Assembly (NCBI GenBank): GCA_013314735.1
Contig: JABUFD010000004.1
Span: forward strand, 186,001 to 250,000
Direction: 5' to 3'
DNA: 64,000 nt
From: Anaerolineae bacterium
GTDB lineage: Bacteria > Chloroflexota > Anaerolineae > Anaerolineales > Anaerolineaceae
Translations under genes and position numbers: made by a program
Part shown: piece after piece, positions 14,167 through 27,479 of the stretch
Layout: each line of letters begins with the position of its first letter
Numbering within the stretch: the stretch's first letter is position 1
The notes under the pieces: generated by a model
What the model saw: only the letters and a program-made list of their open reading frames with translations
Database searches by the model: none
What the model was told of the DNA's origin: nothing

Positions 14167-17100
14167 TCAGATGCTGCCAGTTTCGCGTGTCTTCGCTATA
14201 CGAGCCCTGAGCTCTTCCACCTCGCCCAACTCAAACCGCGAATGATGGGATATAAAGGTCAGTTCCGCCTTGGTCAATTGGCGTGATGCCTCTGACAGGT
14301 TTTTCTCGTCAATCAGTAATGCCACGATCACGAGCAGGATCCGGGCAGCCGGCAGCGGTCGGTTTGCCTTCTCCAGCATCTGGTAACCGCGCTCGTAATA
14401 ATAGCGCGCACGGTCATTTTGCCCCTCTGCCTGGGCTATCTTTCCCAGCAATTGAAAAATGACCGCCCTGTCATCCAACCCAACCTGGTTCTCATCCTGG
14501 GCACGCAGCAATTTCAACGCTTCACGGCTGGAATGCTTGGCAACCTCCAGGTTACCCAGGCCCAATTGTGCCATACCAGTGTGTACCTGCAAGGCGATCT
14601 TAAATTCACTGCCCCCCATTCGCTCGATCTGCTTCGCAGCAATTTCGCCAAACTCCAACGCCCGTTGAAAATCATCCATTTGCAGGTACAACTGTGCCAG
14701 ATGGACATAACACGTACTGAGATGATGCGAATGTCCCACCCGCTTTGCCATCTCAATCGCTTCCAGCATATAGCGTTCAGCTTCCTGCGGACGGCCGAAC
14801 TCCATTTGCAGCAATCCCAGGTTGGTATTGAGCTCGATCAACACCTCAATATCGCCCAGTTCCTTCTGGGTGTCAAAGCATTTCTGGAAATTTTCCATGG
14901 CGTCATTCAGCTGACCGCGCTTCCAGGCAATCAATCCCAGATTATTATAGGAACGGGCCGCCAGGGCTACCTCTCCCATTTGTTCTCGCAGCTCCAGGCT
15001 CAACCGGGTGTAGTAACTGGATTGATCCAGCTCGCCTTTGATAAAGTAAATCCCGCCCAGTCGATTGTAAATCGATGCGACCACCTGCTGGGCATCGATA
15101 TCACGCACCAGGTCGAGAGCGCGTTTCATGATCGATTCTGCCTGGTCAACGTTGCCGCGACGGAAATGAATCCATCCGATATCATTATAAATGGAAGCAA
15201 ATTCAACCGCATTTTCACTGGAAAGTTCTTTGAGGGCCATTTCAGCCGCCTGCAGCCGGCCTAACGCTTTTTCATAATCGCCCTGGCGTTCAAATGTGGT
15301 AGCAATTCGCCGATGCAGGGAGGATTGCTGCTGTAACCATGGCGCGGTGCCATCTTCCAGCACAATTTCGAGCGCGGTGGCATAATGCCGCCTCGCAGCC
15401 GGGTATTCCCCGATCACCACCAGGATATCACCCAGACCGGTCTGGATATCGTAAGCCTGCTGGGTGGTATACCCCACTTTGCTGAGCATACTCAGGGCTG
15501 TGACAAAATGCTGGCGCGCCTGTTCGTTGGCAAAGTCGTGCATCGCTTTCTTGCCGGCCAGCACCAGGTAATGCAAGGCGCGGTCTTCCTGGTAGCTTCG
15601 CGAATAATGGTGCGCGAGCATTTCTATCTGATCATCAAGATGATCCGGGTTCAGTGATTCGATAGCCTCAGCCACCAGTTGATGCATACTTTTCCGTTCA
15701 CGTACCAACAGGGTGGAATAGATGGCATCTGCCACCAGTCCATGCCGGAACCGGTACCGCCGTGATAACCCATACACCATCGGTTCAATGAATTCATGAT
15801 GGGTTAAGTAATTCAGCGTATCCAGAATCACCCTGCGCGTGAGACGTGGCAGCATTTTTTCGAGGATGTTAACGCTGAAAGGGTTGCCAATGACGGAAGC
15901 GGCCTGGATCACATGGCGTTGGGTCAGGTTCAGCCGGTCAAAACGTGTCAGGATCAATGCTTGCAGGGTATCCGGCACCCCAAGTGAATCGACCTGCGCG
16001 TCCTTATTCATTTTCCAGATATCGTCATCAAACAGGATCACATTGTCTTCGATCAGCATGCGCAGGATCTCTTCCATATAAAGCGGCATCCCCGCAGAAC
16101 GCTGCACAATTTGCTGGCGAAACTGGACGGGGAAGTCCTGCATGGAAAGCAGGGAATTGAACAATTGTTCTGTTTCGGGAATGGCCAGCGGTTTCAGTTC
16201 GATCACCAGCATCCGCTCGTGTGTCAACACCTGTTCAGCATGCTTCCGGATTTTCTGAACACTGCCGCCTTCAAACGGCCGTGAAATCCCATAGATCAGG
16301 ATCGGCTCCTGGTTGACGGCATCGACCAGGAAGTTCATTAACTCCAGCGAGGATTCGTCCGCCCAGTGCAGGTCATCCAGCACCAGCATCAGCGGTTTGC
16401 GATGTGATAATGTGACCAGGATGCGGCGCACAGCAAGGAATATTCGCAGCTGCAGTTGCTCCGCTTCCAGCAATCCCAATGTTCGTTTGACCCGTTCGTC
16501 TGAAATTTCCATCCCCATAATGTATTCCAGGTACGGCAATACATTGTCCACATCATCCGGCAGCAATTCTTCAATTGTCGAACGCAACACTTCGTGGCGC
16601 AACTCACCGCCGAATTGTTTCAATTGCCAGAAATTCCGGAACATATCCTGAAAAATCCAGTATGGTATGGATTTCCGGTAGGTCAGGGTGTGGCCTTCCA
16701 TCAGTTGTAAATCATTGGAAGAAAATCGCTTTTGCACCTCACGCATTAACCGGCTTTTACCGATCCCTGCTTCACCGGTGACCAGGATCAAACCACCTTG
16801 TTGCTCATTCACCAATTGCCGCAGGACTGCATCAATCTGGCGGATTTCAGATTCATGCCCAATATAATGGCTGCCGAGTTCCTGCAGCCCGCGCGTTGAT
16901 CCCGGGTTCGCTTTGGGGCCAATCACCTCATACACCGTCACCGGATCAGCAATTCCTTTCAGATTCATCGACTGCGGTTTGTGAAAGTCAAACAATGGCT
17001 GAACACGGCGGAAGATGTTCTCACTGACCAGTACCTGGCCTGCCTGCGATACTTCCTCCAATCGATGCGCGATATTGACCGTGTCGCCGATCGCGGTGTA

Positions 17101-17685
17101 ATTCATCAGGTGGTTGGAGCCAATCCCGCCGACAATGACCGTCCCATTATTAATGCCGCAGTGCACCCCCAGTTCGATCCCCTGCAGCTGCTCACGAAAC
17201 TCCAGACTCAGCAACTTCGTGTCTTCGATCATGTCAAACGCTGACCGCACCGCCCGTTCGGCATTGTTCTCATAAGCCAGTGGTGCGCCAAACAAGGCCA
17301 TCAAGCCGTCACCGGTGAGTTTGTCCACCATACCGTCATACTTGTAGACATCATTCGCCAGAACGCGAATGAACTTTTGCATCAACTCATACAACACATC
17401 CGGTTCCAGTTTTTCCGTCAGAGGAGTATAGCCTGTCAGATCGACAAAAAGCACCGTTACGTTGCGGCGTTGGCCGCTGGCTTCCAGGCCGGCTGCGCGA
17501 AAACGCTCCAGCAAATCTGAACCCATCAGGGTTTCCAACGGCTGCTGTTCGGGATCAAGCTGGGTTTCCTGTGTCTCCGCGGCACGGGCTTCACTCAGGT
17601 GTGTACCGCAGTTCCCGCAGAACCGCATGCCAGGGGGGTTGTGGAACCCACAGGATTTGCAATGTAAATACGACCCGTCAACCAT
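14167..17685 (-). CDS. Zinc-ribbon / class III adenylate cyclase / AAA ATPase / TPR regulator
   Basis: A 1172-residue multidomain protein. Residues 9-26 form a zinc ribbon (CKSCGF, FCGNCG). The class III cyclase domain (about 75-255) has both metal Asp sites (LFVDLTGYTPLTEKL, GDGLMALFGAP), DKLTGDG with the likely substrate Lys, and GDTVNIAHRLE with the transition-state Asn and Arg, so it looks active. The ATPase domain has Walker A GEAGIGKSRL and Walker B LMLVLDDLHWAD. The C-terminal 500 residues are TPR repeats. No membrane helix is seen. It probably couples protein or ligand binding on the TPRs to cAMP synthesis; no partner is obvious nearby. Confidence 0.92.
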   Translation of the reverse strand: MVDGSYLHCKSCGFHNPPGMRFCGNCGTHLSEARAAETQETQLDPEQQPLETLMGSDLLERFRAAGLEASGQRRNVTVLFVDLTGYTPLTEKLEPDVLYELMQKFIRVLANDVYKYDGMVDKLTGDGLMALFGAPLAYENNAERAVRSAFDMIEDTKLLSLEFREQLQGIELGVHCGINNGTVIVGGIGSNHLMNYTAIGDTVNIAHRLEEVSQAGQVLVSENIFRRVQPLFDFHKPQSMNLKGIADPVTVYEVIGPKANPGSTRGLQELGSHYIGHESEIRQIDAVLRQLVNEQQGGLILVTGEAGIGKSRLMREVQKRFSSNDLQLMEGHTLTYRKSIPYWIFQDMFRNFWQLKQFGGELRHEVLRSTIEELLPDDVDNVLPYLEYIMGMEISDERVKRTLGLLEAEQLQLRIFLAVRRILVTLSHRKPLMLVLDDLHWADESSLELMNFLVDAVNQEPILIYGISRPFEGGSVQKIRKHAEQVLTHERMLVIELKPLAIPETEQLFNSLLSMQDFPVQFRQQIVQRSAGMPLYMEEILRMLIEDNVILFDDDIWKMNKDAQVDSLGVPDTLQALILTRFDRLNLTQRHVIQAASVIGNPFSVNILEKMLPRLTRRVILDTLNYLTHHEFIEPMVYGLSRRYRFRHGLVADAIYSTLLVRERKSMHQLVAEAIESLNPDHLDDQIEMLAHHYSRSYQEDRALHYLVLAGKKAMHDFANEQARQHFVTALSMLSKVGYTTQQAYDIQTGLGDILVVIGEYPAARRHYATALEIVLEDGTAPWLQQQSSLHRRIATTFERQGDYEKALGRLQAAEMALKELSSENAVEFASIYNDIGWIHFRRGNVDQAESIMKRALDLVRDIDAQQVVASIYNRLGGIYFIKGELDQSSYYTRLSLELREQMGEVALAARSYNNLGLIAWKRGQLNDAMENFQKCFDTQKELGDIEVLIELNTNLGLLQMEFGRPQEAERYMLEAIEMAKRVGHSHHLSTCYVHLAQLYLQMDDFQRALEFGEIAAKQIERMGGSEFKIALQVHTGMAQLGLGNLEVAKHSSREALKLLRAQDENQVGLDDRAVIFQLLGKIAQAEGQNDRARYYYERGYQMLEKANRPLPAARILLVIVALLIDEKNLSEASRQLTKAELTFISHHSRFELGEVEELRARIAKTRETGSI

Positions 17686-23734: not shown

Positions 23735-23740
23735 TATAAT
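23735..23740 (+). promoter_or_regulatory. -10 element of the riboswitch-subtilase transcript
   Basis: A perfect TATAAT lies about 30 bases before the aptamer, so transcription would begin near 23747 and include the whole riboswitch. No clear -35 is visible. Confidence 0.5.
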
Positions 23741-23767
23741 GAACCTAGAGTAATCAGATTCATTTAC

Positions 23768-23866
23768 AACTGAAAAAGGCAAAACCAGTGAAAACTGGTG
23801 ACGCAAAGCCATTGGGTCTAAAGTTCTGTGATCAGAACAATGACAGCCAGGTTGCCGGTAGGAAAA
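23768..23866 (+). ncRNA. Cyclic di-GMP-I (GEMM-I) riboswitch aptamer
   Basis: It matches the GEMM-I consensus in order. AAAGGCAAA opens it. Hairpin ACCAGT-GAAA-ACTGGT (23784-23799) carries the GNRA tetraloop. The invariant GACGCAAAGCC follows (23800-23810), then GGGTCTAA. A second hairpin GTTCTG-TGAT-CAGAAC spans 23823-23838, and the closing segment is CCAGGTTGCCGG. A terminator hairpin and then the ribosome site of the subtilase follow. The family senses cyclic di-GMP; whether binding switches the gene on or off cannot be decided by eye. Confidence 0.93.
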
Positions 23867-23892
23867 ACCATATCGTTCTTCTATTAGCAAGC

Positions 23893-23920
23893 CTGGCATA
23901 CCCGCCAGTTTTTTGTTTTT
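23893..23920 (+). terminator. Riboswitch expression-platform terminator
   Basis: The short stem CTGGC with GCCAG (23893-23897, 23904-23908) is followed by TTTTTTGTTTTT. It sits between the aptamer and the GAGGAGG ribosome site at 23922, which indicates control by transcription termination. Confidence 0.75.
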
Positions 23921-23934
23921 CGAGGAGGTTCGGT

Positions 23935-25806
23935 ATGTCAGCAAAATCAAATTTCTCAAAAATTCATCGGGTTGTTTCCCTTGTTCTGTTGCTGTTGATC
24001 GCCCTTTCGTCATTCCCGGCATCCATCCAGGCTGCTGCATCCGAATCATTCATCGTACAGGGGTCCAGCATCTCGGCAGTCGCTGACGCGGTAACTGCCA
24101 GCGGTGGGCAGATCACTTCACAGCTGGCAATCATCAACGGCGTTGCTGCGTATCTCACCCCGGCAGCGCGCGCGCAGCTGGAGGATCATCCCGCCATCAC
24201 CGCCATCACCCCCAACGCCAACGTGGCAGCCAGCGGCCTGACCGCCAAAAAGGTGAAATTCCCATCTGCTGATTTCCCGGAAGCCAGTGGCGCAGATTAT
24301 GTCTGGCAACAGGGAATCACTGGTTCAGGCATCACCATCGCCGTGGTTGACAGCGGCCTGGCAGCTTTCAACCCCCTGGTCAAAGATACCGCGAATCAGA
24401 ACCGGCTGTTGGGCTGGGTTGATTTCGTCCAGAACCGCAATAAGCCCATCGATCCAAACGGCCACGGCACCCACATCACCAGCATCATGTTAAATTCACA
24501 AAAGGGCGCTGATGGCTCCTATAATGGCGTCGCGCCAGATGCCAACCTGGTGGCGGTACGCGTTTTGAACAAGAACGGCCGCGGTACGTATGAAAAAGTG
24601 ATCCAGGGCATCCAATGGGTGGTTGACCACAAGGATGAGTACAACATCAAGATCATGAACCTGTCACTGACGGGTGAAGTGCTGTCACCCTATTGGGCAG
24701 ACCCGCTAAACCAGGCCGTGATGAATGCCTGGGCCAATGGTATCACTGTGATCACCTGCGCCGGGAACGAGGGACCTTCACCGGTATCGATCAGTGTTCC
24801 TGGCAACAATCCTTATGTGATCACGGTTGGCGCTTTCACCGATGCCTACACCCCCACCGACTGGCAGGATGATTACCTGGCCAGCTTCTCTGGCGCAGGG
24901 CCCACCCTCGACGCGTTTGTTAAGCCGGACCTGGTCGCTCCTGGAGCGCACATGGTCGCCATGATGTCCAATGCCTCTTACATCTCCAAAGAGCACGAAG
25001 CCAACTGGTTCACTGGCACAAAGTATTATGAAATGGCCGGCACTTCGCAGGCGGCTGCGGTTGCCACCGGTGTGGCTGCCTTGATGTATCAGCAAAACCC
25101 CAATTTGACACCGGATGAGATGAAATACCGCCTGATGATCACGGCCATGCCGTGGATCGAAGGGGATGTGCCGGTGGAAGAAGCCAGGGCTGCGTACAGT
25201 GTCTTCCAGCAAGGCGCTGGGCGCATCAATGCTCCCGATGCTGTATTTGCGGTAGAGGGTGTGCAGGGTGCAGCCAACCAGGGTTTGGACATCTGGGCTG
25301 ACATGAATGGCGACGCGCACTACCAGGGCTTCGCTTATTACGATGAAGACGAGGGCGTATACCGCATTGATGGGATTGATGAATCGATCAATGATGGTTA
25401 TGTAGTCTGGGATGGCGGACTGGGGTTGTGGTCTGGTGGTTTGGGATTGTGGTCCGGTGGACTGGGCCTGTGGTCAGGTGGGTTGGGACTGTGGTCGGGC
25501 GGTTTGGGCCTATGGTCCGGTGGTTTGGGATTATGGTCCGGCGGCCTGGGCCTGTGGTCCGGTGGACTGGGGCTGTGGTCGGGCGGCTTCGGTTTGTGGT
25601 CAGGCGGCATGGGCCTGTGGTCCGGCAGCGCTACGGATTGGAACGAATTGACTGACAATCCGTCAGCAGAGATGCCGGCCAAAGATGAGCTTTTCTCCAG
25701 TCAATCAATGGAATTCTCCGCCACCCAATCGATGGAATATCCCGACTTCTCTGACCATTTCAATAATGCCGAGACCGGCACCGGTCCGTGGGTTGAAGAA
25801 GACTGA
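23935..25806 (+). CDS. Secreted S8 subtilase with ten GLGLWSG repeats
   Basis: A 623-residue protein. The ATG at 23935 follows GAGGAGG by six bases; a longer in-frame start at 23788 lies inside the riboswitch and is rejected. A signal peptide (VVSLVLLLLIALSSF) is cleaved near SIQA-A. An inhibitor-I9-like prodomain (about 35-100) precedes the peptidase domain: D139 in VVDSGLA, H177 in NGHGTH, oxyanion Asn in CAGNEG and S371 in GTSQAA. After a D/E-rich linker come ten 7-residue units with consensus GLGLWSG (bases 25417-25626), then an acidic Ser/Met-rich tail. No sorting motif or C-terminal membrane helix is seen. Control by c-di-GMP suggests a role in surface attachment or matrix remodelling. 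Confidence 0.93.
   Translation: MSAKSNFSKIHRVVSLVLLLLIALSSFPASIQAAASESFIVQGSSISAVADAVTASGGQITSQLAIINGVAAYLTPAARAQLEDHPAITAITPNANVAASGLTAKKVKFPSADFPEASGADYVWQQGITGSGITIAVVDSGLAAFNPLVKDTANQNRLLGWVDFVQNRNKPIDPNGHGTHITSIMLNSQKGADGSYNGVAPDANLVAVRVLNKNGRGTYEKVIQGIQWVVDHKDEYNIKIMNLSLTGEVLSPYWADPLNQAVMNAWANGITVITCAGNEGPSPVSISVPGNNPYVITVGAFTDAYTPTDWQDDYLASFSGAGPTLDAFVKPDLVAPGAHMVAMMSNASYISKEHEANWFTGTKYYEMAGTSQAAAVATGVAALMYQQNPNLTPDEMKYRLMITAMPWIEGDVPVEEARAAYSVFQQGAGRINAPDAVFAVEGVQGAANQGLDIWADMNGDAHYQGFAYYDEDEGVYRIDGIDESINDGYVVWDGGLGLWSGGLGLWSGGLGLWSGGLGLWSGGLGLWSGGLGLWSGGLGLWSGGLGLWSGGFGLWSGGMGLWSGSATDWNELTDNPSAEMPAKDELFSSQSMEFSATQSMEYPDFSDHFNNAETGTGPWVEED
25417..25626 (+). repeat. Ten 21-base coding repeats (GLGLWSG)
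   Basis: Ten in-frame units of 21 bases. Eight encode GLGLWSG; the last two encode GFGLWSG and GMGLWSG. Third-codon positions vary among units (CTG/TTG/CTA, GGT/GGC/GGA/GGG, TCT/TCC/TCA/TCG), while the peptide is almost invariant. That suggests selection on the peptide, not recent slippage. Confidence 0.95.
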
Positions 25807-25844
25807 CAACTGACATCCAGCAAGAACAGGTGTTACCTCACAAA

Positions 25845-25899
25845 GAGGGCATTCTGCCCGGCAGCACCGGCAGAATGCCCTCCGATAAAGGCAATTTTT
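25845..25899 (+). terminator. Strong terminator after the subtilase gene
   Basis: A perfect 14-bp stem, GAGGGCATTCTGCC (25845-25858) with GGCAGAATGCCCTC (25869-25882), and T6 from 25894. It separates the subtilase transcript from the second riboswitch. Confidence 0.85.
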
Positions 25900-25987
25900 T
25901 CAGGCGAAAATTGATTAAGAAACATTAATAGTAAATTAGTTGCGTTTATGGTAATATGCAAGTAGCAATTTTACAAAGTTCAACTTA

Positions 25988-26080
25988 CAGAACTGAAAAG
26001 GCAAACCCAATGAAAGTTGGGGACGCAAAGCCAGGAGTCTACAGCTCATTCATCGAGCCATGATAGTCGGGTTGCCAAGT
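25988..26080 (+). ncRNA. Second cyclic di-GMP-I riboswitch aptamer (orphan)
   Basis: A second GEMM-I match: AAAAGGCAAA, hairpin CCCAAT-GAAA-GTTGGG (26006-26021), GGACGCAAAGCC (26020-26031), GAGTCTA, a small hairpin GCTC/GAGC (26044-26058) and CGGGTTGCC. A -10-like TAATAT lies at 25952-25957, after the subtilase terminator, so it may have its own promoter. It is followed by a terminator but no plus-strand gene; the next genes are on the minus strand. Confidence 0.9.
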
Positions 26081-26105: not shown

Positions 26106-26140
26106 AACCTGACGAGCGACAAGTTCCGTCAGGTTTTTTT
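26106..26140 (+). terminator. Terminator behind the orphan riboswitch
   Basis: Stem AACCTGACG (26106-26114) with CGTCAGGTT (26127-26135), a 12-base loop and T7. It lies about 25 bases after the aptamer, the normal position of a riboswitch expression platform. Confidence 0.88.
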
Positions 26141-26306: not shown

Positions 26307-27479
26307 CTACAGGCCCTGTGCGGCCACCTCGGCGATATGTTGAATGGCAGCATCCAGCTCCGCTCCCAGTCCGGAAATCCCCGCATCCAGAAAGCCGCGG
26401 ATGATCATCGAAACCGCTTCACTTTCGGTGAACCCGCGCGACATCAGGTATTCGACCTGTTCCGGGGCAATCTTTCCAATGCTGGCCTCATGGCTCAATT
26501 GCGCATCCCTGTGATTCGACCGCACCCCGGGGATGGATTCGATGAAAGCCCCCCCATCATGTGAGATCAACATACCCGAACAATCCACATGCGCCCGGCA
26601 GGCAGCATTCCCGATCATCAAACCACCCTGGATGATCTGCCCTCCGGTTGAAACACCACGGTGCTTCAGTTCAGCACTGGTACCGGTTGCGTTGAGTTCC
26701 ACCCGCGAACCAGTATTCACCCGACTTCCTTTTTCCGCCAGGATAACGGACATAAAATTTGCACTGGCGCCTTCCCCCACCAACAGGGTCAGCGGGTTGG
26801 AAACAATATCCGCACCGGTGCGCAGGGAAACATAATTGCTGTTAAACACCCCATTCCGCCCAACGCGGGTGGCTGCGCGTGGTCGCACAGTAACCTCCGC
26901 CCCCCAGCTGTGCACCATCGTATTGGTCAATACCGAATCTTCGCCAACATAAAACTCCGAAACCGCCAAGTGCAGGCCGCGTTGAACGCCCTGATGGGTC
27001 AGGCAGCCTGTAATCAGTTCCAGGGCCGCGCCATCTTCCACAATCACTATGTTATGAATGCGCTGGGCAATATTCGCGCTGGCCATATAGAGTGCAGTCT
27101 GGTAGGGAAGAGAAATTTTCTCACCAGCCCTCACACGCAGAAAAAAGCCTTCGGGTGCAGCCTCAGCCACCTGCCGTGTGATCTCATCTTCTTCTGGAGA
27201 AATCAGATTCCAGGAATATTGTTCCCGCAACCACGGATATTGCGCCAACGCGGTTGCGATCGGCAGCACTTCCAGCCCTGGCACTTCACTGTAGGCACAC
27301 ACCGCGTGCAAATCCCTCACCATGAATGTGCCCGAGCGCGGCTGCCCTGTATGAAACAGAACACCGACCTCAGCCAATGAGGTGCTGTCCGATGTTTCAA
27401 GATGCAATTCATCACCAACAACCGGTTGCAGGTCATCGGAGTGGATATAACTGTTTACATCTGGAAACCGCTGGCTCAT
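26307..27479 (-). CDS. sufD: SufB/SufD-family Fe-S cluster scaffold protein
   Basis: A 390-residue SufBD-superfamily protein. Recognisable parts are the beta-helix core (LKHRGVSTGGQIIQGG), AHVDCSGMLIS with a Cys, IESIPGVRS, and the C-terminal helical signature LSHEASIGKIAPEQVEYLMSRG. It works with SufC as the scaffold for Fe-S assembly in the cytoplasm. Its ATG overlaps the sufC stop (ATGA), so the two are translationally coupled. Only one SufBD-type gene is present and no SufS, SufE or SufU is nearby. That fits the minimal SufCB-like (SMS) systems described from archaea and anaerobes, so the B or D label is provisional. Confidence 0.88.
   Translation of the reverse strand: MSQRFPDVNSYIHSDDLQPVVGDELHLETSDSTSLAEVGVLFHTGQPRSGTFMVRDLHAVCAYSEVPGLEVLPIATALAQYPWLREQYSWNLISPEEDEITRQVAEAAPEGFFLRVRAGEKISLPYQTALYMASANIAQRIHNIVIVEDGAALELITGCLTHQGVQRGLHLAVSEFYVGEDSVLTNTMVHSWGAEVTVRPRAATRVGRNGVFNSNYVSLRTGADIVSNPLTLLVGEGASANFMSVILAEKGSRVNTGSRVELNATGTSAELKHRGVSTGGQIIQGGLMIGNAACRAHVDCSGMLISHDGGAFIESIPGVRSNHRDAQLSHEASIGKIAPEQVEYLMSRGFTESEAVSMIIRGFLDAGISGLGAELDAAIQHIAEVAAQGL

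Follow-up and report, generated by a model that had tools for sequence, protein, structure and literature searches.

Introduction

The closest described counterpart of the locus reported here is PPEP-1 (Zmp1, CD2830) of Clostridioides difficile, a secreted metalloprotease under the control of a class I c-di-GMP OFF riboswitch (PMC11477304, PMC6366702). PPEP-1 releases adhesins (PMC11477304), and these substrates are under class II c-di-GMP switches, so that protease and adhesins are inversely controlled (PMC11477304, PMC6366702). The same organism has a c-di-GMP-I riboswitch without a gene between CD2517 and CD2517.1 (PMC11477304). Among open-access papers we found nothing relevant on c-di-GMP riboswitches with subtilases or in the lineage studied here.

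We analyzed a 64,000-nt stretch of an Anaerolineae genome (the window) in which a c-di-GMP-I (GEMM-I) aptamer, RS1, precedes a gene for an S8 subtilase. RS1 is probably a transcriptional c-di-GMP OFF riboswitch for this one secreted protease, which would trim surface proteins or matrix when c-di-GMP is low. As with PPEP-1, one gene encodes a secreted protease and is preceded by a c-di-GMP-I switch, which here is predicted to stop transcription with ligand; from the predicted architecture the protease is expected at low c-di-GMP. PPEP-1 is, however, a zinc metalloprotease, whereas the enzyme here is a serine protease with Trp/Gly repeats; because the two enzymes are unrelated, the subtilase would work like PPEP-1 without being a member of the PPEP family. 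If confirmed, the locus would add a second example, unrelated to PPEP-1, of a c-di-GMP OFF riboswitch governing a secreted protease, conserved across several bacterial families, and would imply more than one origin of c-di-GMP-controlled surface proteolysis.

Table 1. Features of the subtilase locus and its surroundings, in window coordinates.
Feature	Position	Strand	Basis
Cyclase/AAA/TPR gene	14167-17685		
Candidate -10 box, TATAAT	23735-23740	+	Sequence
RS1, c-di-GMP-I aptamer	23768-23859	+	RF01051, 83 bits, E 7.4e-15 (covariance search)
RS1 aptamer 3' strand GCCAGGTT, 5' half of predicted antiterminator	23846-23853	+	Growing-transcript folding, shuffle test, pair counts
AGCCTGGC, 3' half of predicted RS1 antiterminator, overlapping terminator 5' arm	23890-23897	+	Folding, shuffle test, pair counts
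RS1 intrinsic terminator	23893-23914	+	Stem 23893-23908, 5 bp including 4 G-C; TTTTTT 23909-23914
Ribosome-binding site, GAGGAGG	23922-23928	+	Sequence
S8 subtilase gene, 623 aa, ATG at 23935	23935-25806	+	PF00082, 173.5 bits, residues 130-427
Ten Trp/Gly heptads, residues 495-564	25417-25626	+	Sequence
3' hairpin behind the subtilase gene	25845-25882	+	-30.4 kcal/mol for 25838-25905, z -5.2
RS2, second complete c-di-GMP-I aptamer, no downstream gene	25990-26079	+	RF01051, 76.8 bits; ORF list
RS2 aptamer 3' strand GTCGGGTT, 5' half of RS2 antiterminator	26066-26073	+	Folding, shuffle test, pair counts
RS2 terminator with T7; 5' arm is the other antiterminator half	26106-26140	+	Folding, strong terminator
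SufBD-core gene	26307-27479	-	

The RS1 leader and the subtilase gene

The RS1 match spans the full RF01051 model with every modelled pair standard; the gathering score of 35 bits served as cut-off for c-di-GMP-I calls. The covariance search thus bears out the GEMM-I aptamer that a sequence-only reading of this DNA had placed before the subtilase. Like other members of RF01051, RS1 and a second aptamer behind the gene, RS2, are complete and have a terminator-type expression platform. They differ from usual members in their target gene and in flanking a single gene from both sides, RS2 having none of its own. Both have a G at the position that corresponds to G20 of Vc2, as expected for c-di-GMP rather than cAMP-GMP, and we infer that RS1 binds c-di-GMP. 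The orthologous switch in genome G035 (L072 2642-2733) has an A at this position, which may shift ligand preference towards cAMP-GMP.

The TATAAT that the same reading took for a -10 box is present, but no -35 partner passes the promoter scan, which gave no site at all on the forward strand; because no -35 box was found, a promoter before RS1 is only plausible. The terminator and the GAGGAGG ribosome-binding site named in that reading are present, as is the ATG start codon; the terminator stem is short (-7.3 kcal/mol). The hairpin behind the gene, described earlier as a strong terminator, is very stable, but its T6 run starts ∼12 nt beyond it and it is therefore no textbook intrinsic terminator. 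The layout fits the subtilase being the single gene of the RS1 transcript.

The encoded protein consists of a signal-peptide-like N-terminus (judged by eye), a propeptide-like region, the catalytic domain and a repeat tail, and is predicted from its sequence to be secreted. Alignment to solved subtilases (for example 3afg and 9ues) identified the catalytic residues D139, H177 and S371 and the oxyanion residue N278, confirming the complete catalytic triad reported earlier. The protein resembles 3afg and 9ues in its catalytic domain and these D/H/N/S residues and differs from them in its C-terminal Trp/Gly heptad array, which lies outside the matched stretch. An identity as mycosin was rejected, the NCBIfam match being far below cut-off, and a single-sequence AlphaFold2 model of the whole subtilase was discarded (mean pLDDT 35.6).

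Predicted direction of the switch

In folds of the RS1 transcript at increasing lengths, the second antiterminator half, as soon as it is transcribed, captures the aptamer 3' strand, and the terminator cannot form alongside this duplex. In both RS1 and RS2 the expression platform competes with the aptamer in this way, antiterminator against terminator. The RS1 antiterminator duplex stands out from shuffled sequences (p = 0.002), and across RS1, RS2 and the switches before the orthologues in G035, G049, G059 and G039 the duplex is equalled by 0.1 to 2.6% of shuffled arms at most. In the same six sequences, which are related and few for such counts, 3 of the 8 antiterminator pairs have changed on both sides and still pair, and 95.8% of cells are pairing; the corresponding values are 91.0% for shuffles and no more than 55% for slid arms. 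By eye, the same arrangement also precedes the orthologue in G502.

Because the ligand-bound aptamer keeps its 3' strand and leaves the terminator arm free, RS1 has an OFF layout. With no ligand, the terminator 5' arm would be taken up in pairing with the aptamer 3' strand, polymerase would read through and the protease would be made; with c-di-GMP bound, the aptamer would retain that strand, the terminator would fold and transcription would stop. The direction predicted by this model is thus OFF, with the protease made at low c-di-GMP. An automatic rule classified the switches before Trp-repeat subtilases as OFF (3/6) or probable OFF (2/6), the sixth, in G059, having no clear terminator.

It is unlikely that RS1 is instead an ON switch, by which c-di-GMP would promote the protease during settled life for processing of matrix or surface proteins or for nutrients. 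The case for it comes from other subtilase subfamilies in the order, where in 8 of the 10 c-di-GMP-I switches the terminator stem includes the aptamer 3' strand, an ON layout. The RS1 terminator, however, lies wholly outside the aptamer, with the aptamer 3' strand pairing to the terminator 5' arm, and none of the sequenced switches classified before close orthologues is of the ON class. The contrast in layout between the two groups (8 ON of 8 vs 0 of 5) gives p = 0.0008 when switches are counted as independent, a value that is too optimistic because the switches are related. If confirmed, it suggests opposite wiring of related subtilases within one lineage. Counted against RS1 as an OFF switch for this protease are the short RS1 terminator stem, the lack of a -35 box and the many orthologues without a switch.

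Proposed role of the protease

Under the OFF reading, protease synthesis and export would follow when c-di-GMP is low and cells leave the settled state, and the exported enzyme may then trim surface proteins or matrix. The sequence-only reading had proposed that the protease is released when c-di-GMP changes, which is plausible, and that it acts on matrix or adhesins, as we also infer. For PPEP-1, class II-controlled adhesins are known as partners; here none was found, and a search of the source genome gave no riboswitch-controlled adhesin.

The switch may be OFF and the protease nevertheless a scavenger for free-swimming or starving cells, with no part in remodelling the cell's own surface. 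Subtilases are commonly nutritional, the source genome encodes six S8 proteins and no partner substrate was identified. We regard this as possible but rather improbable, since only one of the six S8 genes, the subtilase at 23935-25806, has a c-di-GMP-I switch in front of it, and since the conserved Trp/Gly tail suggests a role in localisation or binding.

Conservation in relatives

Among 121 genomes of the order, 54 have c-di-GMP-I aptamers, and 16 of the 105 c-di-GMP-I clusters precede a subtilase, far above the expectation from the ∼0.2% of genes that encode subtilases. A subtilase had been considered an unusual target for such a switch; given this frequency, that does not hold within the lineage. 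These counts depend on which genomes were searched.

Together with the covariance score, comparison of the locus across genomes strongly supports the riboswitch call and the link between riboswitch and subtilase that had been proposed from the sequence: nine other genomes have a c-di-GMP-I switch before a Trp-repeat subtilase. Six belong to the order (G035, G049, G059, G119, G502 and G039, where the gene is divided between two frames) and three to a family outside it (G184, G152 and G229). Together the nine span five families (f1, which is that of the source genome, f4, f11, f14 and f47). G233 (f52) also has a c-di-GMP-I switch, before a repeat-bearing subtilase that is more distant. In G059, G184, G152 and G229 the switch before the Trp-repeat subtilase is the only c-di-GMP-I match found, which makes these four relatives clean test cases.

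Orthologues without the switch occur in G038, G019, G045 (both copies), G046 and most other genomes of the class. Many genomes are drafts, and absence of the switch may reflect contig ends or filters. On a tree of the catalytic domain the switch is clustered, requiring 7 changes as compared to 12.3 in shuffles, which fits an old association that was lost repeatedly, or a few gains.

In six other loci (L034, L040, L046, L056, L095 and L101) we observed tandem c-di-GMP-I aptamers before genes for secreted proteins of ∼220 aa with a sortase-like TLQTC...WGRLF motif. The one of these proteins that was tested had no Pfam match.

A second aptamer behind the gene

RS2 lies just beyond the end of the region covered by the sequence-only reading (25899) and is absent from it. 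The search of the 4.09 Mb source genome for c-di-GMP-I aptamers gave RS1 and RS2 and no others. No gene follows RS2 on the forward strand, and up to the convergent SufBD-core gene there is also no ATG preceded by a ribosome-binding site that could mark a hidden small gene. Because RS2 lies 184 nt behind the subtilase stop codon, we set it aside as a control element of the subtilase.

RS2 is most simply explained as what remains of a second riboswitch-gene cassette, a leader that has lost its gene, since tandem cassettes of this kind exist in G119, G114 and G556. In G119, riboswitch and subtilase are followed by a riboswitch and a GGDEF gene, and the aptamer between the repeat-bearing subtilase and the GGDEF gene (L081 3995-5045) has the position of RS2. 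In G556 (L214 755-4361), two c-di-GMP-I aptamers are each followed by an EAL (phosphodiesterase) gene, an apparent feedback on c-di-GMP breakdown.

RS2 resembles the CD2517/CD2517.1 switch in being an aptamer without an annotated gene behind it, and differs in lying directly behind a gene with its own c-di-GMP-I switch. Perhaps RS2 is a working stand-alone RNA, with c-di-GMP setting the length of a non-coding transcript that either stops near 26140 or extends by read-through in the direction of 26272 and the SufBD-core gene's 3' end. RS2 retains an intact aptamer, antiterminator and strong terminator, and the c-di-GMP-I switches listed for C. difficile include gene-less and antisense ones (PMC11477304). 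We nevertheless hold this doubtful, as the tandem cassettes make gene loss the simpler account and no close relative holds the RS2 region.

The Trp/Gly repeat tail

Ten GLGLWSG repeats had been claimed for the C-terminal tail. Ten heptads are indeed present (units judged by eye), but only eight are exactly GLGLWSG, the others being GFGLWSG and GMGLWSG. The eight identical heptads differ at synonymous sites only (pS 0.72, pN 0), and in most of 20 relatives examined identical units likewise show high synonymous divergence. Because protein-identical units are near synonymous saturation, each array is old in its lineage and under strong selection at the protein level. Recent duplication of the repeats at the DNA level was rejected on the same grounds. 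Active codon scrambling is also unsupported, with 4.36 mismatches per unit pair as compared to 5.46 expected for independently drawn codons; this deficit, together with repeat serine codons that are all TCN, points to one old ancestral unit.

The repeat unit is nearly constant inside each protein and different between species (GLGLWSG, GYGAWSG, GYGVWSG, GFGQWAG, GYSGWAG, GKWTWAG, AGAWSGG and others), so that the array has changed as a whole between lineages. This concerted change at the protein level was observed at loci L071-L075 and L183-L194 and in the array of the window. With its protein constant and its codons scrambled, the array makes concerted protein evolution accessible to study. 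A stacking module that needs mutually matching units would explain both the constancy within proteins and the change between lineages. A more specific idea, that the array is a lineage-private homotypic module whose units are selected to be identical while codons drift and change together between species, and that the array, or a peptide released from it, confers on this protease self-assembly or recognition of its own kind, we consider very unlikely. An AlphaFold2 model of the C-terminus (a 93-residue helix, pTM 0.28) is implausible for a Gly-rich array and was discarded.

Signalling context and gene neighbours

The source genome has 21 GGDEF matches, which makes c-di-GMP signalling likely. 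Two sub-threshold c-di-GMP-II matches were observed (cut-off 53.5 bits). One, on contig C11 of the source genome (L195 8902-9006, 41.3 bits), has no gene within ∼500 nt on its strand, and the other, in G018 (L198 3199-4735, 42.3 bits), immediately precedes the gene for an S8 subtilase from a different subfamily.

The cyclase/AAA/TPR gene in the window is separated from the subtilase gene by ABC exporter genes; its identity as a TOMM kinase/cyclase was rejected, the NCBIfam match being far below cut-off. Many Trp-repeat subtilase genes adjoin AAA/TPR signalling genes, which often carry a class III cyclase domain as well, and others adjoin a sensor histidine kinase (loci L071-L075, L179, L184, L190 and L192).
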